Below are positions 2,618 to 23,139 of a stretch of DNA of 64,000 bases, in pieces. Numbering within the stretch: the stretch's first letter is position 1; the number at the start of each line of letters is the position of its first letter. The stretch covers positions 1 to 64,000 of the forward strand of contig JAFQQN010000004.1 in NCBI GenBank assembly GCA_017410605.1, in the 5' to 3' direction. The notes under the pieces are model-generated. The model saw nothing but the letters and a program-made list of their open reading frames with translations, was not told where the DNA came from and did no database searches. Made by a program: the position numbers and the translations under genes. Origin of the DNA: Clostridia bacterium. GTDB lineage: Bacteria; Bacillota; Clostridia; Oscillospirales; Acutalibacteraceae.

Positions 2618-4423
2618 TTACTTTTTAAACTGCGGACCGTAGGTCAGGCAAGCACGATAGTCCTGTCCTTCTTTATCCATACCGAATGCATTCCAACAAG
2701 AAGGACGGAAGATATCATCCTCGGGTACATTATGCATACATACAGGTATACGAAGCATTGAGCACATAGTAATAAGGTCGGCGCCGATATGACCATAACT
2801 GATTGCGCCATGGTTAGCACCCCAGTTCTGCATTACCTCGTAAGCGGTTTTAAAGGGGCTGCCTTCCTTGCCGTCGCAACGAGGCGCAAACCAAGTGCAA
2901 GGCCAGGTTGGGTTTGTTCTTTCCATAAGAGTATCCGATACTTTGTCGGGAAGATTTACTGTCCAGCCCTCTGCGATCTGCAATACAGGCCCCAAGCCCT
3001 TAACAAGATTAAGTCTGATCATTGTGCAGGGCATTTCTGATTTAGTTGTAAAGTGACTCGAGAATCCACCGCCACGGAAGTTATCGAAGCCTGCTTCGCA
3101 CCAAACGGTAGCATCGGTCATTTTTTTAATATCCTCATCGGTTACTTCCCACCATTTTTTCATAATGGCGTTGCCGTTTTCATCTTTACATTCGCCGCAA
3201 GCATCTAAACAAGCCGCACCCGAATTCAGAAGATGTATAATACCGTCAGATTCTTTTGCTTTGCCTTCTAATTCATAGTCGGCAACACGCTTTACAGCAT
3301 CACCGCTCCAATATGTACGAACATCTGCAAAGATTTGTGCGCGGTGAGTTAATAATCTCATAAAGAGCATACCCATACCGTTAAGTACGTCATTTTCGGT
3401 GGCGAGTGTGTACGGCTCTCTTGCACCTTCGTAGTCAAAGGTAGAGCTGAGCAGTGCTTCAGGATAGTCACAGTTAGGCCAATGGTCTGTCCACTGTCTT
3501 TGACCTTGGAAACCGCCAACGATAGCATTGTGACCCACCATTTCTTCTTCAAAGCCTTCGGGCAAGTTTTTATTACCTGCCATAAGGTCTTTGATTATAC
3601 AGTACATTTTAACAGTGAATTCCCACTGCTTTTCTTTTTCTTCATCTGAGAACTTAACAAAATCGGGATTATCGTCTCTGCCCTCTTTGCAGTGTTCCTT
3701 AGTCCAAGCGAGAGCTTTTTTGTACTCTTCTTCATTATAGATTCCTTCTTCCATACGGCGAAGGATTTCAACTTCATCAACACTCTCAACGCGCATACCG
3801 AAGTATTCTTCCATAAAGTCTTGGTCAATAATAGAACCAGCGATACCCATACATTGAGAACCGATTTGAAGATATGACTTACCGCGCATAGTAGCAACTG
3901 CAATAGCGGCACGACCAAAGCGTAAAAGCTTTTCTTTTACATCTTCGGGGATTTCGTTTACCATATCAACGTCCTGCACTTCGTGACCGTAAATACCGAA
4001 TGCAGGAAGTCCCTTTTGTGCATGACCTGCCAAAACAGCTGCAAGATAAACCGCACCGGGACGCTCGGTTCCGTTAAAGCCCCAAACACCTTTTATGGTG
4101 TGAGGATCCATATCCATTGTTTCAGAACCGTAGCACCAACAAGGTGTTACAGAAAGGGTAATATCTACGTTATTTTTTTTAAATTTATCGGCGCAAGCGG
4201 CGGTTTCAGCAACACGACCGATTGTTGTGTCTGCCATTATTACCTTTACCGGCTCACCGTTTGAATAGAAAAGATTTTCCTCGAACAATTTTTTGGCAGC
4301 GTTAGCCATAGCCCAAACCTGCGGTTCAAGGCTTTCACGAAGCTTCATTGGTCCGCGTCTGCCGTCAACAACAGGACGGATTCCTATTACCGGATAATCA
4401 CCTACGTATCTGTTTTTTGTCAT
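2618..4423 (-). CDS. fucI: L-fucose isomerase
   Basis: The enzyme converts L-fucose to L-fuculose (and D-arabinose to D-ribulose) in the cytoplasm, the first step of fucose breakdown. The protein has about 601 residues, the usual length. Family signatures include GIRPVVDGRRGP near the N-terminus and the metal-binding region with the Glu in ATENDVLNGMG, the Asp in FADVRTYW and the His in WGANHG. The Mn2+ ligand assignment is from knowledge of the E. coli enzyme. I chose the ATG at 4423 because GGGGGTGA lies just upstream; an in-frame ATG at 4438 has no ribosome site. No fuculokinase, aldolase or permease lies nearby, so the rest of the pathway must be elsewhere. The divergent AraC-type gene is the probable regulator. 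Confidence 0.95.
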   Translation of the reverse strand: MTKNRYVGDYPVIGIRPVVDGRRGPMKLRESLEPQVWAMANAAKKLFEENLFYSNGEPVKVIMADTTIGRVAETAACADKFKKNNVDITLSVTPCWCYGSETMDMDPHTIKGVWGFNGTERPGAVYLAAVLAGHAQKGLPAFGIYGHEVQDVDMVNEIPEDVKEKLLRFGRAAIAVATMRGKSYLQIGSQCMGIAGSIIDQDFMEEYFGMRVESVDEVEILRRMEEGIYNEEEYKKALAWTKEHCKEGRDDNPDFVKFSDEEKEKQWEFTVKMYCIIKDLMAGNKNLPEGFEEEMVGHNAIVGGFQGQRQWTDHWPNCDYPEALLSSTFDYEGAREPYTLATENDVLNGMGMLFMRLLTHRAQIFADVRTYWSGDAVKRVADYELEGKAKESDGIIHLLNSGAACLDACGECKDENGNAIMKKWWEVTDEDIKKMTDATVWCEAGFDNFRGGGFSSHFTTKSEMPCTMIRLNLVKGLGPVLQIAEGWTVNLPDKVSDTLMERTNPTWPCTWFAPRCDGKEGSPFKTAYEVMQNWGANHGAISYGHIGADLITMCSMLRIPVCMHNVPEDDIFRPSCWNAFGMDKEGQDYRACLTYGPQFKK

Positions 4424-10441: not shown

Positions 10442-10575
10442 AACATCCTCCATAACATATTTCTTATCCAATATTTTACCATATATTTAAGATAATTGTT
10501 ATATAAAAAATATACAATTATTTACTAAATAATAAAATATTTACATCAAATATATATAAAGTGTTTTTTCGCACT

Positions 10576-10604
10576 AAAACGGCGTTGCAATGCAACGCCG
10601 TTTT
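10576..10604. terminator. Terminator after the glycosidase lipoprotein gene
   Basis: AAAACGGCGTTGCA and TGCAACGCCGTTTT form a perfect 14-bp palindrome with T/A flanks, 18 bp beyond the stop at 10622. Confidence 0.88.
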
Positions 10605-10621
10605 AAAAATCCATATTTCCT

Positions 10622-12472
10622 TTAGTCCTTAACGGTTGTATAAACTGCTACAGAACCGGCCGGCAAAGTGTCAATAAACGCATCTTCAACGCCTTTAATA
10701 ACCTTATCGGCATTAAGCATTTCATTTCCGGCAACCGGCTTAATATCACTAGCTACATAGAGGTGTCTGTAAAAATCCTTACCACCTAAACTGTCTTCAA
10801 TATTAATTTTGAAGGTAGCGTCAAGGAGGTTGTAGTTTGTAACAATTATTGTCCACTCGCCATCGTTACGTTTAATACAAGAAGCATAAACACCAATATC
10901 AACCTCGCACCCATAAAGAGCGCCTTGGTCAACATACTTGGTCAGGAGTGAAGTAACATACCAAGCAGGACGGGGAATTGTGGCCTCCTGCAAAGCAGGT
11001 AAGAAGCCGTTTATCTGAATGCCCTGGTGGAACTCACTATTTGTTGGGGCCTCACCACCGCTGGTGTCACCCATACCCGGCCACTGCTGGTCATAAAGGG
11101 TCCAGAGATAAAGGTTATCTACACCCAAATTCATAACGGCGTTGGCCATAGCGCCAATAGCTACACCCTTCCAGGGGTGACCCATGGTTTCACGCTTAGC
11201 AGAGGCAGAGGATCCTTTATCTGAAGCGTTATACTCATCAATAAAATATCTCATACCCTTTTCTCTTGTTTTATTAAGAGGGTCGGGAATTTTATCGAAA
11301 GGAATATCATAATACTGGTCGTTAATATACTCATTAGCGCGGTCGTAACCGTAGTGGGTACCTATAATATCAATAACATCGGTAAGGTTTTCAAGAGCGT
11401 AGTCAACCATACGGGAACTTTCAGGGCTATTTTGGTCGTCACGCCAGTTGTCACAAGGTCCTACAATTTCATAATTCTCTCTAAGACCTGCATCCTTCAG
11501 ACCGGCATCTAAGGCTCTTACTGCCTTGTCATACATAGGAATAATTGTATCATACATACGGCGCTCGTCTAAAGTTGCCTCTTGGTCTTCATACCACCCA
11601 AGACCGCTTAAAGTGTTGTTTACCTCGGTATAGGCAAAAAGCTGTTTAACATTGGTAATTCCGTGAGCTTTAAAGGCTAAAACAGAATCTCTTACAAATT
11701 CACGGTGGCCCTTAAGGGTGGCTTCAAAGGCTTCTTCCATTGTTATAGTGTTGCTGGGCAAGGCGGTAAAGCCTGTGAAATAAAGACCAACATAAGATCC
11801 ATATGCTCTTGCTTCATACTCGCCAGTTTCTTCATTTTTAGTAGGTATAAAGCCTGAGAAAGACCACTGGGGGGTTATTCCAACCTCTATGCCAATCTTT
11901 TCCATATCCTTGCAGTTTTTATAAAAGGCCTGCATACCAGCATTGTCCCAGTCAAACTTGCCGGTTTCGGGGTCCCAAGCAAGGGAAGGACCGTAGAAGC
12001 TTCTTATCATATCTACGCCCATTTTTTCCATTGTATCTAGCTCGTGGGCAATTTGCTTCTCGGTGTTCATACGGTCATATTTATCGGGAATATAGTTGTA
12101 AAGCTGATGAATCATATTAAAGCCAAGGAAGTTTTCGTTTATAGGCTTTTTGTTGTTTATAAACAGCTCTTGCTCATAAAGAGATTCTTCAAACTCTTCT
12201 TCCTCTTCCCAATCATCAAACTCGTCTTCGAAGTCTTCCCAATCGTCCTCATAGTCCTCAAAATCATCTTCGTACTCGTCGTCTTGGTACTCATCATCTT
12301 CGTACTCGTCGTCTTGGTACTCGTCGTCTTGGTACTCGTCGTCGACAAAATTATCCGCCGTATCGGAAGAAGTATTGGTTGTTTCGCCCTGTTTTTTACA
12401 ACCTGCAAACAAGGCAAGGCTGATGCACAGAGTTAAAATTAAACAGATAAGCTTTATTAATTTATTTTTCAT
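10622..12472 (-). CDS. Lipoprotein with clan GH-A-like glycoside hydrolase domain and acidic stalk
   Basis: The product has 616 residues. A signal peptide with lipobox LFAGC (Cys about 25) is followed by an extremely acidic stalk (about 43-95) of repeated DDEYQ/DDEYE units. The TIM-barrel-like domain (about 100-520) carries AYTEVNN (candidate acid/base Glu) and YFIDEYNASD (candidate nucleophile Glu), the pattern of GH39/GH51/GH5-like retaining glycosidases. DMIRSFYGPSLAWDPETGKFDW is typical of the first strands. A small beta domain follows (about 530-616). I cannot name the GH family or the substrate. The gene overlaps the upstream 1417-residue gene by 11 bp (translational coupling), so the two act together on the cell surface. 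Confidence 0.78.
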   Translation of the reverse strand: MKNKLIKLICLILTLCISLALFAGCKKQGETTNTSSDTADNFVDDEYQDDEYQDDEYEDDEYQDDEYEDDFEDYEDDWEDFEDEFDDWEEEEEFEESLYEQELFINNKKPINENFLGFNMIHQLYNYIPDKYDRMNTEKQIAHELDTMEKMGVDMIRSFYGPSLAWDPETGKFDWDNAGMQAFYKNCKDMEKIGIEVGITPQWSFSGFIPTKNEETGEYEARAYGSYVGLYFTGFTALPSNTITMEEAFEATLKGHREFVRDSVLAFKAHGITNVKQLFAYTEVNNTLSGLGWYEDQEATLDERRMYDTIIPMYDKAVRALDAGLKDAGLRENYEIVGPCDNWRDDQNSPESSRMVDYALENLTDVIDIIGTHYGYDRANEYINDQYYDIPFDKIPDPLNKTREKGMRYFIDEYNASDKGSSASAKRETMGHPWKGVAIGAMANAVMNLGVDNLYLWTLYDQQWPGMGDTSGGEAPTNSEFHQGIQINGFLPALQEATIPRPAWYVTSLLTKYVDQGALYGCEVDIGVYASCIKRNDGEWTIIVTNYNLLDATFKINIEDSLGGKDFYRHLYVASDIKPVAGNEMLNADKVIKGVEDAFIDTLPAGSVAVYTTVKD

Positions 12473-15400
12473 TGTGCTTACCGCCTTTCTTGAATTTTAA
12501 GATTAAAACTACTGCGACAGCTATAATGATAACCAATAATATTGCAGGTAAAATAAATTTGATTACAATTGAAGAGTCTTTCTCGTCAGATTCTTCTGTT
12601 TCATCAGAATCGTCGGGAGTTTCTTCGGTATCGGTTTCTTCAAAGTCTTCAGAATCATCAAAGTCTTCAGAATCATCAAAGTCATCGTAATCATCATACT
12701 CTTCAGAATCGTCAAGGTCGTCATATTCCTCGTCCTCAGACTCTTCCACATCGGTTGTTGACTGTAAAGTATCCTTTGCCCAGACAACCTCTGTGCTTTC
12801 GGGTTGCTTTAAGGGAACGTTGGGGTTTTCTTCATAACCCATAGGAATCTTACAGGAAAGTGAAGCAGGAACAAAGAAATCGGGGTCGCTAAGCTTGAGA
12901 GAACCGTCATTGTTTTCAATTACAAGGTATAAAACACCGCTGGAATCGGTTGCAAGGCGGTAGCCGTAACGCTTTTCACCGTTACCGTTTGACTTTATAA
13001 TTCCATCAGGAGATTGGTCGCCGCTCTTTGCAAGAGGTGTTTTACCGTCAGCAGAAACGAACACTCTGTCTGCAGTAGCCGAGCTGCTGTTTGCGGTAAT
13101 ACTAAAGGAATAAGTGGTATTGGGCTTAAGGTTAAGCTTAATTGACTGGGTTTTGCCCTGTGAAACGCTCTTAACATTTTCTTCTGTAAAGAGATTATAC
13201 ATATCTTCACAGTAGGTAAGGCTAATTTCATCAATAATTCCGGGCTTAACTTCTTTAAGAGTTATATCATCTAACCAGCAAGCACTTATAACAGCACCGG
13301 CATCAAAAGCAGTTGAAATAAAGTACTGCTCAGGTCCGGTAATAAATTCTACCGACTGCTTAACCCATTGGCCTGTGGTTGCAAAGCCGCCTACACGGTA
13401 AATAACCCTTGCTCCGCGTTTTGAAACGTCAGGACCTTCAATAGTAGCATTTGGGTCTTTGGCCAAATCGGGGTCAGCATCGCCGTAGTTTACATAGAAA
13501 GACCAATAAGGAATTTTAGACTGACCCTCATCAAGATACACCCAGAAGCTATATTCATAAAGAGTGTTAGGCTTAACGGGTATTGTGAAAATGGGGTCGG
13601 TATATCTTGCTGCCTTAGTAAGGCTGAAGGTTGCGGAGTTTATATAGTTTTCTTGATATAAACGCAAGGCATTGGTCTGTTTGCCATCACGCTCTGGTGC
13701 CAAAAGAACACCCATTCTTTCATGTTGATTAACAGGAACATAAAAATCGTCAAAGTTAACTACAAACTCGTCTGTGGGTCCATTATGGCCCTCAAACATT
13801 GTGGGCACACCCATATCGGTAATAACAATATCGTCTATCCATATTTCGGGTGTTATTTTGCCTCCGTTAAGGGTAAAGCTAAGAACATCTTCGTCATCAC
13901 CCATAATTACCACTGCGCGGTAATCTCTCCAAACATCCTTTGCCTCTATATACATAGGCGTTGCAATGGTGGTTGAGGTTGTACCGTGTTTTACTTGGAA
14001 AGACAACCAATCACTAACCAGACCACTGCCAATCTTGGCACGTAAGGTTATTTCATATTGGTGGCCGGGGTTAACAGGGATTGAGAAATATTTATCAATT
14101 CCGTTTGTTGTGTTGGTATAGTTGAGCGCTGTTGTGCTTTTATATTCACCCTGTTTAATGTGAAGCATTTTAGACTGTGTTTCATCAAATGCCTCATCGG
14201 TGATAACCTCAAAACGGTCGGTCTGTTGGAAGGTTGCATCGCCGCCGCGGTTGTCAAAATCAATGCTAACCTGGTCCTGAGGTTCTTTAATATCGGTCAC
14301 AACGGGGGCCTTAATAGTGGCGCCGCCCTTTTCTAATTTAACATCGTCAATATAAACGGTGTAAGGATTCTGTCCAACTGCGGTACAAATAACAAGGGCA
14401 AGTTCGCTATAGTCAGCAGAGTTAAAGGTAAGCTCCATATAATTCCAGGTGTTTGCGGCAACGGGTGTTGTTCCCTCAGGAGTAATATTATTGGTAGTTC
14501 TGAAGGTGTTAACACGGCGTTTACTGTAAATACCGTCTTTGGTTGTATATGCTTGGTTATATGCAATAAGGTTTAAATAACCGTCGGTTTTCTCACCAAG
14601 GGTAGCGGTTTCTAAATTGGGGTCATAAATACCGGCAAAGTTAACCATTGTGCCTCTTTTTTCCGTTTTAGTTTCATAAACAACCGGACTGTTATACCAG
14701 AAGGAAACGCGATAATCGGTATCCTTTTCAAGATTATCAAAAATAGTGTAAAGATAACCTGGGTTAGCTCTTACCTCTAAAGAATAATTACCACTCTTTA
14801 CAACATCTTCATCAACGGTAAGCCAAGGCATTTTCGCATCTTCAGGAAGCTTACTAAAGCAGTTGATTTTTTCGGCGGGAACCTCTTCGGTGCCATAGCC
14901 GGGAAGATTTTTTTGACCTGTTGTTATCTTGTTTGCTTCACCAACAAGCTCTTGCTTATGGGCAAGGAACCACTTAGAAATATCTTCAGTTTCGCTATCA
15001 GCGGCGAAAGGTGCGGCCTCAAAATGGGCATAAAGGTTAGTCTTTATATTAGCAAGGTCGCTAAGCACAAGATTATATGTAGCGTCGGTGCTAACAGTAT
15101 TACCCTCAGCATCCTTCCATGCTACAAATCTATATCCCTCACCTGCGGTTGCGGTGTAAACTGCAGTTTCACCAACTGCATACTGTGCGCCGGCGGTGAT
15201 ATAGTTTTTATCGTTTGTTGCGGTGTTAAACTCTGCAACCGAGTTTTCAACCTTAACGGTACCCATACCGTTACTGTTGTCGGCAACAGAAGCGTTAATC
15301 ATTGAGCTTGGAATAACTTCGCTTACAACAAAATTATCTGCATAGGTTGTGTTAGCATTGGTGCCAACATAATACAAAAGATATTTGTTAGTTGAGGTAA

Positions 15401-16715
15401 CGGTTGTTGCATAAGTATTATAACCATTAACCTCGTTGTCAGAAATTTTAGCAGGTCTTGCAGCTTTACCTGTAATTGGGTTAATAAGCTGTGTTCTGCC
15501 GGTAACAACATTATTCGTGCTGTTAGTCCAGAAGCTATAGTTTGTAGAAGCAAATGTTTTGCCGTTCAGGTTCATCTGATAGGTTATGCGGTAAACTTTG
15601 CCCTCACTGAGAAGATTGTTAGTATCGGTAATAATGTTTGCTAAGGGGTGGGCATCTGAGCTCTCTTCCTTATAAAGAGATTTTGTTCCTGCATAGGCAG
15701 AAGCCTCTGAAATAGATAAAACGGGGGTTCCGCTTTTTACTCTGAGCCAGCCGCTTGTGGTAGGATAATTTTCAAAATCCTGTGTATAGGTATAAAACTC
15801 TGTGGTTTTCTCCTTGAAGTGAGCGGTAAGAACGGTTGCCTTGGAAAGTGTAGCATCAAGCTCAACCTCGTAGGTTGCACTAGTGCTAACAGGGTTGCCG
15901 TTCGCATCTTTCCAACAATCGAAAATATAGCCCTCAGCTGCAGTTGCGGTGTAAACAGCAGTTTCGCCTACTGCATACTGCACATTGGCGGTGATATAGT
16001 TTTTCTTTTCGGTTGCGGTATTAAACTCGGCAATTTTATTTTCTACCTTAACGGTACCCATACCGGTGCTGTCAGCGCCTAGTGTGGCCTGAATTTTTTC
16101 GCCGGGTATAATTTCGCTTATTACAAAATCATCTGTATAGGAAGCGGTGGTATTACTGTTGTAGAAATAAACATTAGAGTTGTCTGCTGTAAAGGTATGA
16201 GCAAGAATATTAAAATCCCCTGCGGCACCAACCTTATAAAGAAGTGCCTTATTATAGTCCCCCAAGGTAGAAGGAACTGCAGGATTATAGGCCTTTACAG
16301 TGCTGCCTGTAGTACTGGCAGAATCATTACCTGTTCTAAAAACGGTCTTAGAACTGGCTGAAGCGGTAGTATAAACATAAATTCTATATTTTTTGCCCGC
16401 TGTAAGGTTCTTAGAAGAATCTGAAATAATTCTGATAAGAGGGTGGCTATCACTTTTAGCCTCTCTTAAAAGAGCCTTGTCTCCGCTATAAACCTTGGCA
16501 GAAGTATCTGCGGTTTTGTCAACCATAGAATAGGCCTGAGTACGGAACCAACCTATTCCGCCGTCGGCAGTTTGTTTATAATTTTCAAAATCCTGAGTAT
16601 ATGTATAATATTCTACCTGCTCGGCCAATGTTACCGCCAACATTGAACCAAAGCTGGATAAAAGCAAACATACTGACAGGAAAACACTTAAAGTGCTTTT
16701 TGCTTTAAATCTCAT
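12462..16715 (-). CDS. Giant membrane-anchored surface protein with carbohydrate-binding-like modules and acidic stalk
   Basis: The product has 1417 residues. A signal peptide (about 1-31) is followed by two copies of a module opening with YTYTQDFENY (near 37 and 307), each ending in a repeat with GMGTVKVEN, YAVGETAVYTATA-EGY and WKDA-GN (near 208-302 and 480-570), similar to InlB B-repeat/Flg_new-type repeats. At least three jelly-roll, CBM4/9-like regions follow (about 575-790, 800-960, 965-1150), each with lines such as IWIDDIVITD or VYIDDVKLEK. Near 1325-1385 lies a Ser/Asp/Glu/Tyr stalk, then one membrane helix (about 1385-1407) and a Lys-rich tail. No catalytic site is seen. It is probably a polymer-binding partner of the coupled glycosidase. 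Confidence 0.8.
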   Translation of the reverse strand: MRFKAKSTLSVFLSVCLLLSSFGSMLAVTLAEQVEYYTYTQDFENYKQTADGGIGWFRTQAYSMVDKTADTSAKVYSGDKALLREAKSDSHPLIRIISDSSKNLTAGKKYRIYVYTTASASSKTVFRTGNDSASTTGSTVKAYNPAVPSTLGDYNKALLYKVGAAGDFNILAHTFTADNSNVYFYNSNTTASYTDDFVISEIIPGEKIQATLGADSTGMGTVKVENKIAEFNTATEKKNYITANVQYAVGETAVYTATAAEGYIFDCWKDANGNPVSTSATYEVELDATLSKATVLTAHFKEKTTEFYTYTQDFENYPTTSGWLRVKSGTPVLSISEASAYAGTKSLYKEESSDAHPLANIITDTNNLLSEGKVYRITYQMNLNGKTFASTNYSFWTNSTNNVVTGRTQLINPITGKAARPAKISDNEVNGYNTYATTVTSTNKYLLYYVGTNANTTYADNFVVSEVIPSSMINASVADNSNGMGTVKVENSVAEFNTATNDKNYITAGAQYAVGETAVYTATAGEGYRFVAWKDAEGNTVSTDATYNLVLSDLANIKTNLYAHFEAAPFAADSETEDISKWFLAHKQELVGEANKITTGQKNLPGYGTEEVPAEKINCFSKLPEDAKMPWLTVDEDVVKSGNYSLEVRANPGYLYTIFDNLEKDTDYRVSFWYNSPVVYETKTEKRGTMVNFAGIYDPNLETATLGEKTDGYLNLIAYNQAYTTKDGIYSKRRVNTFRTTNNITPEGTTPVAANTWNYMELTFNSADYSELALVICTAVGQNPYTVYIDDVKLEKGGATIKAPVVTDIKEPQDQVSIDFDNRGGDATFQQTDRFEVITDEAFDETQSKMLHIKQGEYKSTTALNYTNTTNGIDKYFSIPVNPGHQYEITLRAKIGSGLVSDWLSFQVKHGTTSTTIATPMYIEAKDVWRDYRAVVIMGDDEDVLSFTLNGGKITPEIWIDDIVITDMGVPTMFEGHNGPTDEFVVNFDDFYVPVNQHERMGVLLAPERDGKQTNALRLYQENYINSATFSLTKAARYTDPIFTIPVKPNTLYEYSFWVYLDEGQSKIPYWSFYVNYGDADPDLAKDPNATIEGPDVSKRGARVIYRVGGFATTGQWVKQSVEFITGPEQYFISTAFDAGAVISACWLDDITLKEVKPGIIDEISLTYCEDMYNLFTEENVKSVSQGKTQSIKLNLKPNTTYSFSITANSSSATADRVFVSADGKTPLAKSGDQSPDGIIKSNGNGEKRYGYRLATDSSGVLYLVIENNDGSLKLSDPDFFVPASLSCKIPMGYEENPNVPLKQPESTEVVWAKDTLQSTTDVEESEDEEYDDLDDSEEYDDYDDFDDSEDFDDSEDFEETDTEETPDDSDETEESDEKDSSIVIKFILPAILLVIIIAVAVVLILKFKKGGKHNEK

Positions 16716-17034
16716 AAAATAACCTCCGTTTGAAATTTTTCAAAGACTTTTCTTCAAGATAATAATATAATACACCTTTTTTTCTTTCAATGGTCTATTA
16801 TACTGATTTATGTATTATTCTACGATTTTTTCGCAGGTAAATTTTGGGTCGAACGAATATTATAAATAGTTGGTGAAAAGTATAAATACTTTTCACCATA
16901 AAAAGCTGTTTTATATATAATATAAATAGTTTTTATATGGTTTTCCTTATTTAATGACAGATTTTTAATTCTTGACAATTTTGAAAATATATGGTTGAAT
17001 ATCCTATATGACTAGTTAAAAAGGAGGCGTTATT
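16716..17034. other. Divergent regulatory region with a perfect 13-bp inverted repeat
   Basis: The region is AT-rich and separates the surface-protein operon from the divergent AraC gene. TGGTGAAAAGTAT and ATACTTTTCACCA (16871-16898, 2-nt loop) form a perfect inverted repeat with no T-tract, so an operator is more likely than a terminator. I see no clear sigma-A box pair with ideal spacing; TTGACA occurs at about 16973. No small gene is evident. Confidence 0.6.
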
Positions 17035-17853
17035 TTGGAAGTAATAACTTGGGAATCGGCAGGAAAAAACTTTTTGGTTCCAACCTATTTGAACGGACAA
17101 TATACTAGGGGACCCGAAAAAAGAAATGAAATAACCAACAGAAAATTCAACACCTTCTTATATATAAAATCGGGCTATTATATTATCGAATCTAAAAGCG
17201 GAAAAAGGTTAGCCCTTACCCCCGGAAATCTTATTTATATTCCTAAGGGCGCCAGTTACACCACCAGCACCTCTAAAGAAAGCTTTGAACTATTCTTTTT
17301 AGATTTTAACCTTAAAAACCTTGATACGGATAACGAGGTTGTCTTTAGCGATGATATTGAACTTATAACAGACCAAATGCCCGAAAATTTAAAAGAGGTA
17401 ACGAGGGAGTTTTCTTCATATCGCCCAAACCGCAAAAGAGGAACAATGATTCATTCCCTGTATTTGTTTTCAAAAATTTTATATAATGTTATAGATATTG
17501 TCGCCGCTTATAAAATTAAAAAGGGTTCTTCCTACAAGGTTAGCTATGCCATTGCATACACTCACGGGCATTACACCGAACCCCTTACAGTAGAGGATAT
17601 GGCAAAAAGGTGCAATATGAGTGTTTCTCGCTTTCACGAATGCTTTAAAGCCCAAACTGGACAAACCTTTATAAACTATCGAAATCACCTAAGGCTAGAA
17701 AGAGCCAAGATTCTTTTAATTCAAAACCAAGGTAAAACCATTGGCAAAATTGCAACCATGGTAGGCTTTTCTGACCCCCTTTATTTCAGCAAATGCTTTA
17801 GAAAATATTTTGGACAGTCGCCTAAAGAATACGTTGGTCAGAAAAGGTATTAA
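17035..17853 (+). CDS. AraC family transcriptional regulator of the surface glycosidase operon
   Basis: The product has 272 residues. The N-terminal half (about 20-110) is cupin-like (YIKSGYYIIESKSGKRLALTPGNLIYIPKGASY). The C-terminal 100 residues carry the two AraC helix-turn-helix units (LTVEDMAKRCNMSVSRFHECFKAQTGQTF and IATMVGFSDPLYFSKCFRKYFGQSPKEY). The start is TTG at 17035, supported by AAGGAGG at 17021-17027; no ATG is near. It is divergent from the 1417-residue gene, so it is probably the activator of that operon. The inducer is unknown. Confidence 0.88.
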   Translation: MEVITWESAGKNFLVPTYLNGQYTRGPEKRNEITNRKFNTFLYIKSGYYIIESKSGKRLALTPGNLIYIPKGASYTTSTSKESFELFFLDFNLKNLDTDNEVVFSDDIELITDQMPENLKEVTREFSSYRPNRKRGTMIHSLYLFSKILYNVIDIVAAYKIKKGSSYKVSYAIAYTHGHYTEPLTVEDMAKRCNMSVSRFHECFKAQTGQTFINYRNHLRLERAKILLIQNQGKTIGKIATMVGFSDPLYFSKCFRKYFGQSPKEYVGQKRY

Positions 17854-17883
17854 AGCCTCCATCCATACGGAAAAATAAATATT

Positions 17884-17922
17884 AAAACAAAAGAAGCCTC
17901 TGGGGAAGGCTTCTTTTGTTTT
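17884..17922. terminator. Bidirectional terminator
   Basis: AAAACAAAAGAAGCC pairs with GGCTTCTTTTGTTTT around a short loop. It lies between the AraC gene and the convergent small gene at 17932. Confidence 0.88.
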
Positions 17923-17931
17923 ATTTCAGCT

Positions 17932-18796: not shown

Positions 18797-21700
18797 TTAT
18801 GAAAGTTCCAAAAAATAATCTACTATTCCCTTGACTATAGCATCGGCGCACCTATCGTTCCAATCACTGTTCATCATATTATTATAATCTGTAGCGTTGC
18901 TCATAAATCCGTTTTCGGTAAGCACTACAGGGCAATCACTTATTCGGGATAGGAAGAAGTAATGCCAACCAATATCAACAGAACGGTAGGTTCCTGCTTC
19001 ACTCATTCGGTTTTTAATTTTTGTGGCAGGTAAGGCCGTATAGGGGTTAAAATAATAACTATCAAACCCGTGAGCGCTAGAACTTGTAGCGGCATTTCGG
19101 TGCACCGAAACTGCAAGGTTCGGCTGAGCATTTTTAACCTTTAAGATTCTGGTGTCATTATCTAAGCTTGTATCGTCGGTTCGGGTCATAACTACTGTTG
19201 CCCCTAAGGCTTTAAGCTTGGTTGCAATTTGGTTTGCAAGAAACAGATTTCTTTCTGCTTCGTCATATTTTGGGTTAGAGCCAACCGCACCGCCGTCTGA
19301 ACCGCCGTGACCGGCATCAACAGCAATTACAATTCCGTTTAAGGTTCCGCCGTAAGAATTATTTGCCTTTTGGGCGGTGGCAGGATTTAAAAACTTAAAT
19401 ATAAGGTTTCCCTTGCTGTCATAATCGGCTGTCCAGCCGTAGAACATTCCGGTCTTTCTAAGGTGAAGTCTTAAGGTATAGTCTGCAGTACCCTTTATAA
19501 GCTCTGCCTTAGAAAATACAGGGCTGTTTTCAACCGCAGAAAGACTTCCTTCAAAGATTGTTGCGTAACTAAATTTTATATCAACATAGCTATAGGTTGC
19601 TGATTCTATTTTTCCTCTGCTGTCGCTTACTCCGCCGTAATATTTCTGTGGAGATAGGGTAAGTGTAAAGGGGGCCTTCCAATAACTTGCAAGGGATAGC
19701 ACCGTATACCTTCCGCTAGTGGAAACAGAGTTTATTCGAAGCTTATTAAACGAGGGCAGGGTTCCCCTTGTTGTGGTTATATTATCGCCGCTTTTCTTTT
19801 TGGCATAAACCCTTTTGCCATAATTCAGCGCCCTATATGTGTTGCCCGATGAGGGGTCATAAGAGGTTTTTTCACTGCAATAATCTAAGGTTCCTAAGGG
19901 CAGATAACTGTTGTAGGGCTGAGAAAGGTCGTCAAGGGTATTACCATCAAAGGTTTCTATTTGATATTTTATAACCTGAGCAATAAGGTTATTTCCGGCG
20001 CTTATGGGGTTGGTAAGGGGGCTCCAGGTGGTAGATTCGGTGTTTTCCCAATCGTTAGAAAAGGTGTCTGAAAAAATATTGGAAATTACACTTGAGGGGG
20101 GAACAACCTCCTTCAACACGGTAACATTTCCACCCTTTATGCTATCTGTAACACCGCCGTGGGTGCCCTTAAATACCACTTTTCCAAGGGAGGTGTCTTT
20201 ACTGTAGGTGCCTATATCAAACCCGCCTATGTAGGTTGCAAATTCGGTATCCTTTTGGTCCTCTTGGCTTTTTAGGGTTATTGTTTGGCCCGAAAGAGTG
20301 GCGGTAACGGTGCTTCCCACCCTGGCAGTAGCCTTAACAATAAGTGTAGAATTGCTGTCAATTGTAACTGCCGAAGAGGGTGAGCAAGACTGCAATACAA
20401 CATATTTATAATTTACTGTGTATGTATCTGTTTTACCCTTATGGGTAAAGGCAAAGGTATTTTTGCCCGGCTTTAGCTCTTTTGTGAGGGAAAAATAGCC
20501 GTACTCTGTGCGCTCGGGCTTTTCGCCGTTTAAGGTTAACTCAAAATTGGGGTCCGATGCGCCAACAAATGTAATAATGTTGTCATAAACCGTTACGTTC
20601 TTCTGTTTAGGCGAAGTTATTGTAAGGTCTTTTAAAACCAAATCGTCAGAAACACCGCCTGTAAGGTATTTATAAGCAACACCCGAGGCTTCGGTTTTAT
20701 CGTTTTCCATTGAATAAAAACTGTTAAAAACAAAGTTAAACCTGTTAAGCGTGTTAAGGGTCATAAGCTGTCGCGTTAGTTGGTCGGGGTTTTTCCAACT
20801 GCCCTCACCCTTTACTGCAAGGTCAGAGGATAAAACAAATGCAATATCCCTGTCTGCAGGTATAGAGCCTGTCCACCAATCTATAATGCTTTTAAATGAG
20901 GGTTTACTGTCCTCTGTAGAGGCATCTGCCTTAACAAAAACCCCATCAAAATATTTTTTCTCAAGCCATAGAAGAACATCAGAGTTTTTGTCCTGCATAA
21001 GCTGTGCTCTGCCCTCTGCCTCTATTCCCGTGGCAGAAAAGGCAGTTGTCTGATAAACAGGGTCGCACATAACACCAAGGTAAAGGCTTGGCGCTGTTTG
21101 TTTTACCCCCCGTGATATTTTTTTTACCAACCCTGTTAGGCTGTTTTGTGCATAGGCTTTATAGCTGTTTACATTACCTAAGGATATATATTTCTTAAAA
21201 TCTTGACTGGTTTTAACCTTTTCAAGTGAGCTTAAAACAATTCCACCAAGATGTTCTATCTTAGCAACCTCTTCTATTTTTGAAACGGTCTGCTCTGACA
21301 AAATATTGTCTGTTATATCTAATGGGCTGAGCTTGGAAACGTCTATAAGGGCAAAAACCGAAATGTTTTTTTCTGCCCCTAGGGTTATAAGGCTTTTTAA
21401 TGCCGCCATACCCTGTTGGGTTTCGTTTACCAAGGCGGTTTCCTGGTTAAGACTTATAAAAAGGGTGGTCATTCCCTTAGAATAAAGGTTCTCTATAAGC
21501 TGTGAAAATTTTTCAGCGGTATCAGTAACATTTAAATCGGTGCCAAAATAAAGGGTGGTTCCCACAAATTTTGTGGGCCTTGTAGGGGCAGCGTATGTAA
21601 CCTCTTTTTCCTCCCAAAGCTCAGGGCTAAGGGATACCTGCGCAGAAGAATTTTTGGTGAAAACTGCCGCAATTTTAGATACCGAAATAAGCTCTAGCTT

Positions 21701-21892
21701 AAAAAATATACCTATAACTGCAACAACCAAAACCAAAAGCAAGGAAACGGCTATAATGGGGCCGCGCTTTTTATACATTGTGGTTTTTTTGAAGCTTTTA
21801 TTACGCTGTTTTTCTTTCTTTTTTAGCTCAGTAACATAACGGTCTATTATTTCTTCATTAGTTACCTGCTTTTCCTTTTCTTTTTTAAGCAT
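18797..21892 (-). CDS. Membrane-anchored N-acetylmuramoyl-L-alanine amidase with an N-terminal barrel-like domain
   Basis: The product has 1031 residues. A cytoplasmic Lys/Glu-rich segment (about 1-45) and one membrane helix (about 48-68) anchor it. Residues about 100-410 (TKFVGTTLYFGTDLNV, LFISLNQETALVN, FDGVFVKAD) look like a TIM-barrel related to GH18/GHL-type domains. A beta-rich middle follows, then an Amidase_3 domain (about 855-1031). Its zinc ligands are seen as His in DAGHGGSDGG, Glu in DEAERNLF and His in SVHRNA, with the catalytic Glu in LTENGFMSN. It cleaves the amide between muramic acid and the peptide in peptidoglycan. ATG 21892 has GGAAGGG upstream; the in-frame TTG at 21922 is less likely. 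It follows the GHL10 gene by 14 bp, so it is one operon. Confidence 0.9.
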   Translation of the reverse strand: MLKKEKEKQVTNEEIIDRYVTELKKKEKQRNKSFKKTTMYKKRGPIIAVSLLLVLVVAVIGIFFKLELISVSKIAAVFTKNSSAQVSLSPELWEEKEVTYAAPTRPTKFVGTTLYFGTDLNVTDTAEKFSQLIENLYSKGMTTLFISLNQETALVNETQQGMAALKSLITLGAEKNISVFALIDVSKLSPLDITDNILSEQTVSKIEEVAKIEHLGGIVLSSLEKVKTSQDFKKYISLGNVNSYKAYAQNSLTGLVKKISRGVKQTAPSLYLGVMCDPVYQTTAFSATGIEAEGRAQLMQDKNSDVLLWLEKKYFDGVFVKADASTEDSKPSFKSIIDWWTGSIPADRDIAFVLSSDLAVKGEGSWKNPDQLTRQLMTLNTLNRFNFVFNSFYSMENDKTEASGVAYKYLTGGVSDDLVLKDLTITSPKQKNVTVYDNIITFVGASDPNFELTLNGEKPERTEYGYFSLTKELKPGKNTFAFTHKGKTDTYTVNYKYVVLQSCSPSSAVTIDSNSTLIVKATARVGSTVTATLSGQTITLKSQEDQKDTEFATYIGGFDIGTYSKDTSLGKVVFKGTHGGVTDSIKGGNVTVLKEVVPPSSVISNIFSDTFSNDWENTESTTWSPLTNPISAGNNLIAQVIKYQIETFDGNTLDDLSQPYNSYLPLGTLDYCSEKTSYDPSSGNTYRALNYGKRVYAKKKSGDNITTTRGTLPSFNKLRINSVSTSGRYTVLSLASYWKAPFTLTLSPQKYYGGVSDSRGKIESATYSYVDIKFSYATIFEGSLSAVENSPVFSKAELIKGTADYTLRLHLRKTGMFYGWTADYDSKGNLIFKFLNPATAQKANNSYGGTLNGIVIAVDAGHGGSDGGAVGSNPKYDEAERNLFLANQIATKLKALGATVVMTRTDDTSLDNDTRILKVKNAQPNLAVSVHRNAATSSSAHGFDSYYFNPYTALPATKIKNRMSEAGTYRSVDIGWHYFFLSRISDCPVVLTENGFMSNATDYNNMMNSDWNDRCADAIVKGIVDYFLELS

Positions 21893-21906
21893 AATGCCCT
21901 TCCTTT

Positions 21907-23139
21907 TTACGGCCTTAGCCAATTTAAGTTATATTTTACTGCCTGTTCATAAGAAAACACCGCATAACCGTCAAAGCCCTTATCAAGGCAGTCGCTAATC
22001 TGTCTTAAAACAAGCTCTTTACCCTGGCGCTTCCATTCATCACCGTCGGCAGCGGTGGGCTGGTCAATTTTATATGCGCCAATTCCAATATAAACCGATA
22101 TATTCTTTTCTTTAGGCATATTACCCCAAAGATTTAAAAGGTTATTAAATTTAAACTCCTCTGTCTTATATTCATAACCAAAATAAAGCTGAGGTGCTAT
22201 ATAATTAACAAAGCCCTCCTCCCTTATCCAAAGGGCAATATCGGCATAGGCCTCATTATAATTTTTGTCTGTTTTATCAAGGGAAATATGCGCCGACGGG
22301 CTTATTCCAAAGGTTTTTTTATACCTGCCGCACAGCCTATACACCGAGGCCACAAGACTGTTAACATTGGCTCTTCGCCAGTCATCAAGCGAAAGCTTTC
22401 CGCCATTTTTGGTATAGGTGCTATATGTATCCTTATCAAACTCCGGCGAAGTGGTGGGGTAAAAATAATCGTCGAAATGAATACCATCAATATTATAATT
22501 TTCTAAAACCTCTTTAACACCCTTTAAAACAATATCTATACAGTCGGGGTGGCCTGGGTCTAAATAAAATCTACCCCCAAAGGCCTTGGCTCTTCCGCTT
22601 TTGTCATTTAACCAACTGCGAAGAAGCTCATCTTCGGTCAGATTATTATAGTCGTCACTCTGGCTCATTCTATAGGGGTTTATCCAGCCGTGAAGCTCTA
22701 TTCCCTTATCTTTCGCCTGCGCTATAAAAATTTCTAAGGGGTCAAAGCCGGGGTCTTGCCCGCGGGTGCCGGTTAAAAATTCCGAAAAAGGGAAAAGGCT
22801 TGATTTATAAAAGGCATCACCAAAGGGTCTTATATGAAAAAATATGGTATTATATCCCAAAAGGTAAGCGTTATTTACAACCTCTTTTGCAAAAGCTTCA
22901 AATTCTTTTTTTGAATAACCCGTTGTTTTCTTCATATCATAACAAGAGAGCCACAAGGCACGAAGGGTATCGGTCTTTTTATTTTCAGACTGTAATGAAG
23001 TGATTTCTTTTTCACCTTCGGTTGAAACCTTAAAGGAAGTGTTTTCCTTAACAAAATTTACATCGCAACCGGAAAACAAAATCAAAATAAACGAGAAAAA
23101 AACTGAAAAAACTATATATATAAACCTTTTACCCACCAT
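21907..23139 (-). CDS. GHL10 (DUF187) family putative glycoside hydrolase, lipoprotein
   Basis: The product has 410 residues. The signal peptide ends in LFSGC (Cys about 25), so it is a lipoprotein. The rest is one GHL10/DUF187 TIM barrel: RALWLSCYDMK, YNTIFFHIRPFGDAFYKS, WINPYRMS, YNIDGIHFDDYFYP and GISPSAHISL are the usual signatures, with Asp residues in HFDDYF likely catalytic. The family is linked to peptidoglycan or cell-surface glycans. It is the first gene of an operon with the big amidase, so a joint role in cell-wall turnover or spore/septum remodelling is likely but not proven. Confidence 0.88.
   Translation of the reverse strand: MVGKRFIYIVFSVFFSFILILFSGCDVNFVKENTSFKVSTEGEKEITSLQSENKKTDTLRALWLSCYDMKKTTGYSKKEFEAFAKEVVNNAYLLGYNTIFFHIRPFGDAFYKSSLFPFSEFLTGTRGQDPGFDPLEIFIAQAKDKGIELHGWINPYRMSQSDDYNNLTEDELLRSWLNDKSGRAKAFGGRFYLDPGHPDCIDIVLKGVKEVLENYNIDGIHFDDYFYPTTSPEFDKDTYSTYTKNGGKLSLDDWRRANVNSLVASVYRLCGRYKKTFGISPSAHISLDKTDKNYNEAYADIALWIREEGFVNYIAPQLYFGYEYKTEEFKFNNLLNLWGNMPKEKNISVYIGIGAYKIDQPTAADGDEWKRQGKELVLRQISDCLDKGFDGYAVFSYEQAVKYNLNWLRP

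Follow-up and report, generated by a model that had tools for sequence, protein, structure and literature searches.

A recurrent pair of surface-protein genes in gut Clostridia as a probable two-anchor unit for glycan capture and cleavage

Two overlapping genes on the minus strand were analysed in the window (the whole 64,000-nucleotide stretch of contig JAFQQN010000004.1, from a Clostridia bacterium). They encode a large anchored protein, hereafter the partner, and a lipoprotein with a predicted enzyme domain, and an AraC-family gene diverges from them. The features are as follows.

10575..10605, inverted repeat (15+1+15), terminator-like, which ends the two-gene unit ahead of a lactate permease gene
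10622..12472, minus strand, lipoprotein of 616 aa with an acidic stalk and a predicted GH30-like clan GH-A enzyme domain
10625..12181, minus strand, enzyme domain of the lipoprotein (residues 98-616), modelled as a TIM barrel with a C-terminal beta sandwich
12182..12397, minus strand, acidic stalk of the lipoprotein (residues 26-97, 72 aa, 57% Asp/Glu)
12398..12472, minus strand, lipoprotein signal peptide with lipobox FAGC, the Cys25 of which is invariant in 31 aligned homologs
12462..12472, minus strand, 11-nt overlap ATGAAAAATAA of partner stop and lipoprotein start
12462..16715, minus strand, large anchored partner of 1417 aa
12498..12575, minus strand, C-terminal transmembrane (TM) region of the partner (about residues 1381-1406), followed by a KK tail and with no sortase motif before it
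12576..12749, minus strand, acidic stalk of the partner (about residues 1323-1380), a stalk present in only 1 of 30 partners of the genus
12801..13208, minus strand, partner-specific anchor-proximal module (residues 1170-1305), common to all 34 partners
13860..14153, minus strand, best CBM_4_9 stretch of the partner (residues 855-952)
16871..16898, perfect inverted repeat (13+2+13), candidate operator
17035..17853, plus strand, divergent AraC-family regulator of 272 aa with a weak cupin-like N-terminus (HTH_AraC, 3.7e-24)

Both open reading frames and their 11-bp overlap, as reported by the first-pass annotation, were confirmed. Indeed, ATGAAAAATAA contains the ATG of the lipoprotein plus, in another frame, the TAA of the partner, and a Shine-Dalgarno-like AAGAAAGG lies just upstream of the second ATG, at which the lipoprotein starts; translation of the two genes may be coupled. 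Note that the genomes of the genus are all draft assemblies and that gene starts come from longest-ORF calling. The neighbours recognised by the family scan are PFK, lactate permease, AraC, GtrA-type and amidase proteins, the last of which (18797-21922, 1041 aa) ends in an N-acetylmuramoyl-L-alanine amidase domain, the long N-terminal region before it matching no family strongly. The neighbours scanned include no SusC/SusD pair, and no sugar transporter or further carbohydrate enzyme was found adjoining the pair. The term ‘self-contained polymer-use locus’ is therefore overstated, all the more since the terminator-like hairpin stands before the lactate permease gene.

The element between the divergent genes, previously called a perfect 28-bp repeat, is indeed a perfect inverted repeat, but the 28 bp count both arms together with the central AA, which is unpaired. 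On either strand, the best match to a consensus promoter overlaps this element. Arms of at least 13 nt appeared in none of 20 Markov windows, and 0.05% of simulated intergenic regions had them. The palindrome occurs once in the genome, so that a genome-wide operator or a mobile repeat was rejected; a terminator, flagged on the minus strand by the scan, was also rejected because the flanking genes diverge and the stem holds few GC pairs. An AraC gene, identified by its BLAST label, lies near about 13 of 31 pair loci and is immediately divergent in eight of them, the window included, and no equivalent of the palindrome was found upstream of most other AraC/pair loci. The AraC gene is present as first described, but its being ‘dedicated’ to the pair is not established, since AraC genes are common in these genomes. 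The AraC protein may control the pair through the palindrome as a candidate operator. Just after the AraC gene, a second inverted repeat (17883-17923, 17+7+17) is terminator-like.

The lipoprotein carries a signal peptide with a lipobox cysteine, as expected for bacterial lipoproteins, and Lgt is present in its own genome (G000). Besides Cys25, the 31-homolog alignment keeps E283, H373, D412, E413, W457 and W464 invariant. The AlphaFold2 model of the enzyme domain (pLDDT 78, pTM 0.83) displays a barrel plus C-terminal beta sandwich. In model numbering, strand 4 (185-189) is followed by E193, which is E283 of the protein, and strand 7 (318-326) bears E323, which is E413; this is the arrangement that defines clan GH-A, i.e., a (beta/alpha)8 barrel with one Glu after strand 4 and another on strand 7. 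Barrel and sandwich together correspond to the GH30 fold, and GH30 came out on top in both Foldseek and VIA: among solved structures, GH30 xylanases match best (Z 28.7 and 15% identity, with an rmsd of 2.7 over 347 residues), while GH79-type and GH51 structures rank behind them at Z 22-24. The likeness to GH30 xylanases and glucuronoxylanases (e.g., B. subtilis XynC, 3kl3) extends over the whole domain and includes the placement of the putative catalytic glutamates, whereas the window enzyme is only about 15% identical to them, has a long acidic stalk and matches no Pfam or NCBIfam family.

Indeed, when the window protein and its 31 stalked homologs were scanned singly, no Pfam or NCBIfam family covered any of them, and without a Pfam hit the window protein lacks the sequence signature of GH30. 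One of the 31 homologs weakly matches Glyco_hydro_30C (E 0.011), and the enzyme profile, searched against the PDB, matches GH30 at 7e-5 over a short stretch only. Fold and invariant Glu pair together suggest that the lipoprotein is probably a retaining glycosidase of clan GH-A, GH30-like in its modelled fold and not assignable to GH30 by sequence. The earlier label ‘lipoprotein glycosidase’ is supported at that strength.

The partner combines a signal peptide, two divergent InlB B-repeats (Flg_new_2), CBM_4_9-type modules, a conserved C-terminal module and finally an acidic stalk, a TM region and a KK tail, the PxTG motif being absent. CBM_4_9 and InlB B-repeat families are matched by 19-20 of 30 partners, and the carbohydrate-binding type of the CBM_4_9 modules bears out the description of this protein as ‘binding-type’. 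Its structure model is poor (pLDDT 52), and the fold search with this low-confidence model returned generic beta-sandwich matches only. In the same genome, a protein of 1081 aa (L068:4408-7653) is 58% identical to the window partner over its N-terminal 350 aa; these are joined to a DUF4886 domain, and the protein lacks a C-terminal TM.

The 8 genomes of the genus contain 69 homologs of the enzyme, 32 of them stalked and 37 unstalked. A homolog was considered paired when the next gene on the same strand encoded a protein of 850 aa or more with a C-terminal TM and lay no more than 150 bp away. This holds for 29 of the 32 stalked homologs and for 0 of the 37 unstalked ones (Fisher 2e-16). The stalked exceptions are one locus with the partner two genes off (L075), one with a module-bearing neighbour without TM (L084) and one with no partner (L094); an unstalked homolog of 622 aa (L078) lies 194 bp past a complete pair. 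Most pairs display the order partner-enzyme and mostly overlap or abut, and four (L076, L078, L079 and L080) have the order enzyme-partner with gaps of 11-21 bp. On the 65-row enzyme tree, the stalk state requires 5 changes, and across 5 independent contrasts pairing changes with the stalk in 4.8 on average and never in the opposite direction. Note that a sign test on 5 contrasts cannot reach p below 0.0625, and that paralogs, which are not independent, inflate the counts given above.

Unstalked homologs mostly lack a signal peptide, or else form the C-terminal parts of large secreted proteins; those without a signal peptide are probably cytoplasmic. As an example of the large forms, two tandem secreted proteins of 1260-1290 aa in the window's own genome (L065:5369-13291) have about 670 aa of other sequence ahead of a C-terminal enzyme domain. 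Three other genera also contain pairs (G212, loci L158 and L175; G226, L160; G096, L157), and the related genome G004 alone holds about 14. Some pairs have other carbohydrate-active genes nearby (GH43, GH36 and AXE1). The closest named relatives are metagenome-assembled, namely Oscillospiraceae bacterium SIG590 and Clostridia bacterium RGIG8635 from water deer cecum, and a scan of genome contigs with alignment A2 yielded 7 named loci, all from SIG590 or RGIG8635. The co-occurrence analysis thus excludes that the two genes stand apart in most genomes, an outcome named by the first-pass annotation as a refutation, and establishes that they recur as a pair, in most cases overlapping or abutting. 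The open literature searched yielded no description of such a pair, which is weak evidence of absence.

Both window proteins carry the extreme acidic stalks originally noticed, with 57% Asp/Glu over 72 aa in the lipoprotein and 63% over the 60 aa before the TM in the partner. At the DNA level, the DDEYQ repeats of the lipoprotein stalk form a 15/30-nt tandem array (12263-12343), and the partner stalk an 18-nt tandem array (12640-12723). Across the family, the linkers from the lipobox Cys to the enzyme domain measure 56-89 aa (median 61) and contain 28-57% Asp/Glu with 0-5 Lys/Arg; their sequence is unconserved, while composition and length range are conserved. The maximal Asp/Glu fraction in 40 aa has a median of 0.50 in stalked enzymes versus 0.21 in other ORFs with a lipobox match (p=3e-8), for a control set of only 16 ORFs from the same loci, several of which are partners with a probably spurious match. 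In addition, enzymes of other genera (L157, L158 and L175) keep the acidic stalk with an N-terminal TM helix replacing the lipobox. The simplest reading of this composition is that the stalk may be a negatively charged tether that stays extended in the negatively charged wall.

The suggestion of matched stalks with matched reach does not hold as a rule, as only the enzyme stalk is conserved and 25 of 30 partners carry a sortase signal instead. Since the other partners have 8-31% Asp/Glu before the TM, and 12-30% when the 60 residues preceding it are taken, the double stalk is an exception of the window's genome, and matched stalks were rejected as a general design. The length of the linker shows a moderate correlation with that of the juxtamembrane stretch (Spearman 0.54, p=0.002, with non-independent paralogs).

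The usual sorting signal is [STNY]PxTG[DES] before the TM and a basic tail, found in the said 25 of the 30 genus partners, and sortase genes are present in 8 of 8 genomes of the genus. SPKTG is the cleavage target of C. difficile SrtB (PMC4371152), and the partners of the relatives resemble such SPxTG substrates in motif, TM and Lys/Arg tail. In contrast, the window's partner, with its TM and basic KFKKGGK tail, has no PxTG-type motif before the TM and displays the acidic stalk in its place. Its genome contains two sortase-domain genes, one of class B above the TIGR03064 cut-off, with solved relatives that include chains named ‘putative peptidase C60B, sortase B’. This class B gene (L131:1477-2802) adjoins that of a 163-aa protein ending in SPPTGN, a TM and a basic tail, which is likely its substrate. 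Sortase matches in several other genus genomes also fall within long frames (892-985 aa), and a 771-aa frame (L136:1183-3498) seems to combine a sortase domain with an N-terminal part of CinA type. The idea that the acidic stalk replaces the sortase signal, although attractive, was rejected because the window is its only case (n=1): the partners at L158, L092 and L101 lack a canonical motif and are also stalkless.

A block of about 130-180 aa, in single copy just before the anchor, is common to 34 of 34 partners examined. Because the first profile of this module had been trained on the partners themselves, the search was repeated with parts held out. A profile made without the window clade recovered 7 of 7 window-clade partners and 3 from other genera and, among 570 ORFs at E<1e-3, matched in addition L114, itself a partner truncated at the end of its contig, and no non-partner. 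The reverse profile, from the window clade alone, missed L081, L085 and L088, found L095 weakly (2e-4) and found the rest; its extras among the 570 ORFs were two partners lying at contig edges (L112 and L114) and two large proteins that carry the enzyme (3e-4 and 8e-4). Over 250 genomes of the family, the enzyme is present in 7, the module in 8 and both in 6, and in the window's own genome two modules correspond to two stalked enzymes. In an order-wide sample of 394 genomes, the module was not seen outside the family and the enzyme occurred in one genome of another family.

The distant solved relatives of the module, to which its sequence match is weak, are domains named ‘S-layer associated multidomain endoglucanase’ (2zex, E 5e-5), which we take to be of CBM16 type, and a module that is CBM16-like by sequence may bind glycan rather than dock the enzyme. 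The partner modules resemble CBM4/9/16/22 beta-sandwich modules both in its CBM_4_9 matches and in the 2zex match of the C-terminal module; this last one, unlike them, occurs once, beside the anchor, and almost only in partners of stalked enzymes. A natural fusion from another genus (L174:2828-13516, G212) joins the two halves of the pair: this protein of 3562 aa has a signal peptide, the partner architecture and an enzyme domain, the module (2867-3029) running directly into the enzyme (3044-3562) and both the anchors and the acidic stalk being absent, which provides Rosetta-stone evidence that module and enzyme belong together. Two further module-bearing, C-terminally TM-anchored proteins from other genera (L176:63-6968, 2301 aa, and L177:6658-11415, 1585 aa) have no stalked enzyme among the neighbours in view, and the latter has solute-binding proteins and a CBM_4_9 protein nearby; there the module may have other partners.

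Altogether, we favour, with a probability of roughly 0.6, that the pair is a surface glycan capture-and-cleave unit with two anchors in a Gram-positive-type gut Clostridium. The lipid would hold the putative clan GH-A retaining glycosidase in the membrane, and the presumably disordered, negatively charged stalk (56-89 residues across the family) would push it outwards. The partner would be a multi-module glycan-binding scaffold, in the family usually linked to peptidoglycan by a class-B-type sortase through [STNY]PxTG[DES], and its conserved anchor-proximal module, placed next to the enzyme, would either dock the enzyme or present glycan to it. The window's pair would be a variant in which the partner, having no sorting signal, should stay membrane-anchored with an acidic stalk of its own. 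Docking, the nature of the substrate and the spacer function of the stalk are what we infer from these features.

A rather unlikely alternative is that the two co-expressed proteins share a substrate without touching, the operon only matching the dosage of surface binder and enzyme. The CBM16-like sequence of the common module and the GH43, GH36 and AXE1 genes near some pairs would fit it, whereas the module is nearly specific to partners of stalked enzymes, and the L174 fusion sets it directly against the enzyme domain, a junction that substrate sharing alone does not require. Considerably less probable is that the acidic stalk merely reflects a composition habit of surface lipoproteins in this lineage, with no special link to the partner: Ser/Asp/Glu-rich linkers do occur in other lipoproteins of these loci, namely a solute-binding one of 518 aa (L089) and one of 497 aa (L084), at 0.35-0.38 Asp/Glu over 40 aa, but the enzyme stalks are far more acidic, keep a narrow length range with few Lys/Arg and persist in other genera behind an N-terminal TM anchor. 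A mere lineage-wide trait, which the first-pass annotation had named as an outcome that would undo its proposal, is thus exceeded by the stalk.

In the least probable of the readings considered, the stalk is not a spacer but has a chemical role, either binding Ca2+ or another cation or attaching to a surface of positive charge. Extreme Asp/Glu density and the DDEYQ repeats of the window would suit such a role, but no repeat is conserved and the relatives contain Ser/Glu/Asp mixtures; that only composition and length range are kept is more in line with a spacer than with a specific metal site. For the window alone, it is unlikely that the partner lost its sorting signal by recent accident, its acidic tract being drifting repeat DNA and this copy possibly mis-sorted. 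Tandem-repeat DNA does encode both stalks, the form occurs in 1 of 30 partners, and the stalk contains TPDDSD, which might have arisen from TPxTGD by degradation; against this, the ORF is intact, with a strong TM and a Lys tail, and the in-frame stalk is nearly pure Asp/Glu/Ser/Thr/Tyr, a composition that one would not expect to be kept under drift alone.

The two-anchor unit can be compared with systems of the Bacteroidetes, in which the outer-membrane utilisome consists of a surface glycan-binding protein and a surface GH lipoprotein together with SusCD (PMC7618045). Both team a surface glycosidase with a glycan-binding surface protein, whereas the present pair belongs to Clostridia, has no SusC/SusD, anchors its binder by a C-terminal signal and, in the window, has no sugar transporter beside it. 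DUF1735, a folded Ig-like, membrane-bound spacer domain confined to Bacteroidota (PMC11216935), also stands between a lipid anchor and a carbohydrate-active domain, but the spacer of the window is an acidic low-complexity stalk. In a bolder form that we put forward only tentatively, the pair would be a two-anchor complex, previously undescribed, in which a lipid-tethered clan GH-A enzyme without an assigned family, carried by an acidic spacer that varies little in length, docks onto the single anchor-proximal module of a giant, usually wall-linked scaffold, the unit having been duplicated many times in one genus for different polysaccharides.

If true, some uncultured Clostridia of the herbivore gut would own a Gram-positive counterpart of the Bacteroidetes binder-plus-enzyme unit, built from different parts and expanded. 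It would include a glycosidase family unrecognised by the libraries searched here (Pfam and NCBIfam), a partner-specific module usable as a genomic marker, and a charged tether that keeps its length range and not its sequence.
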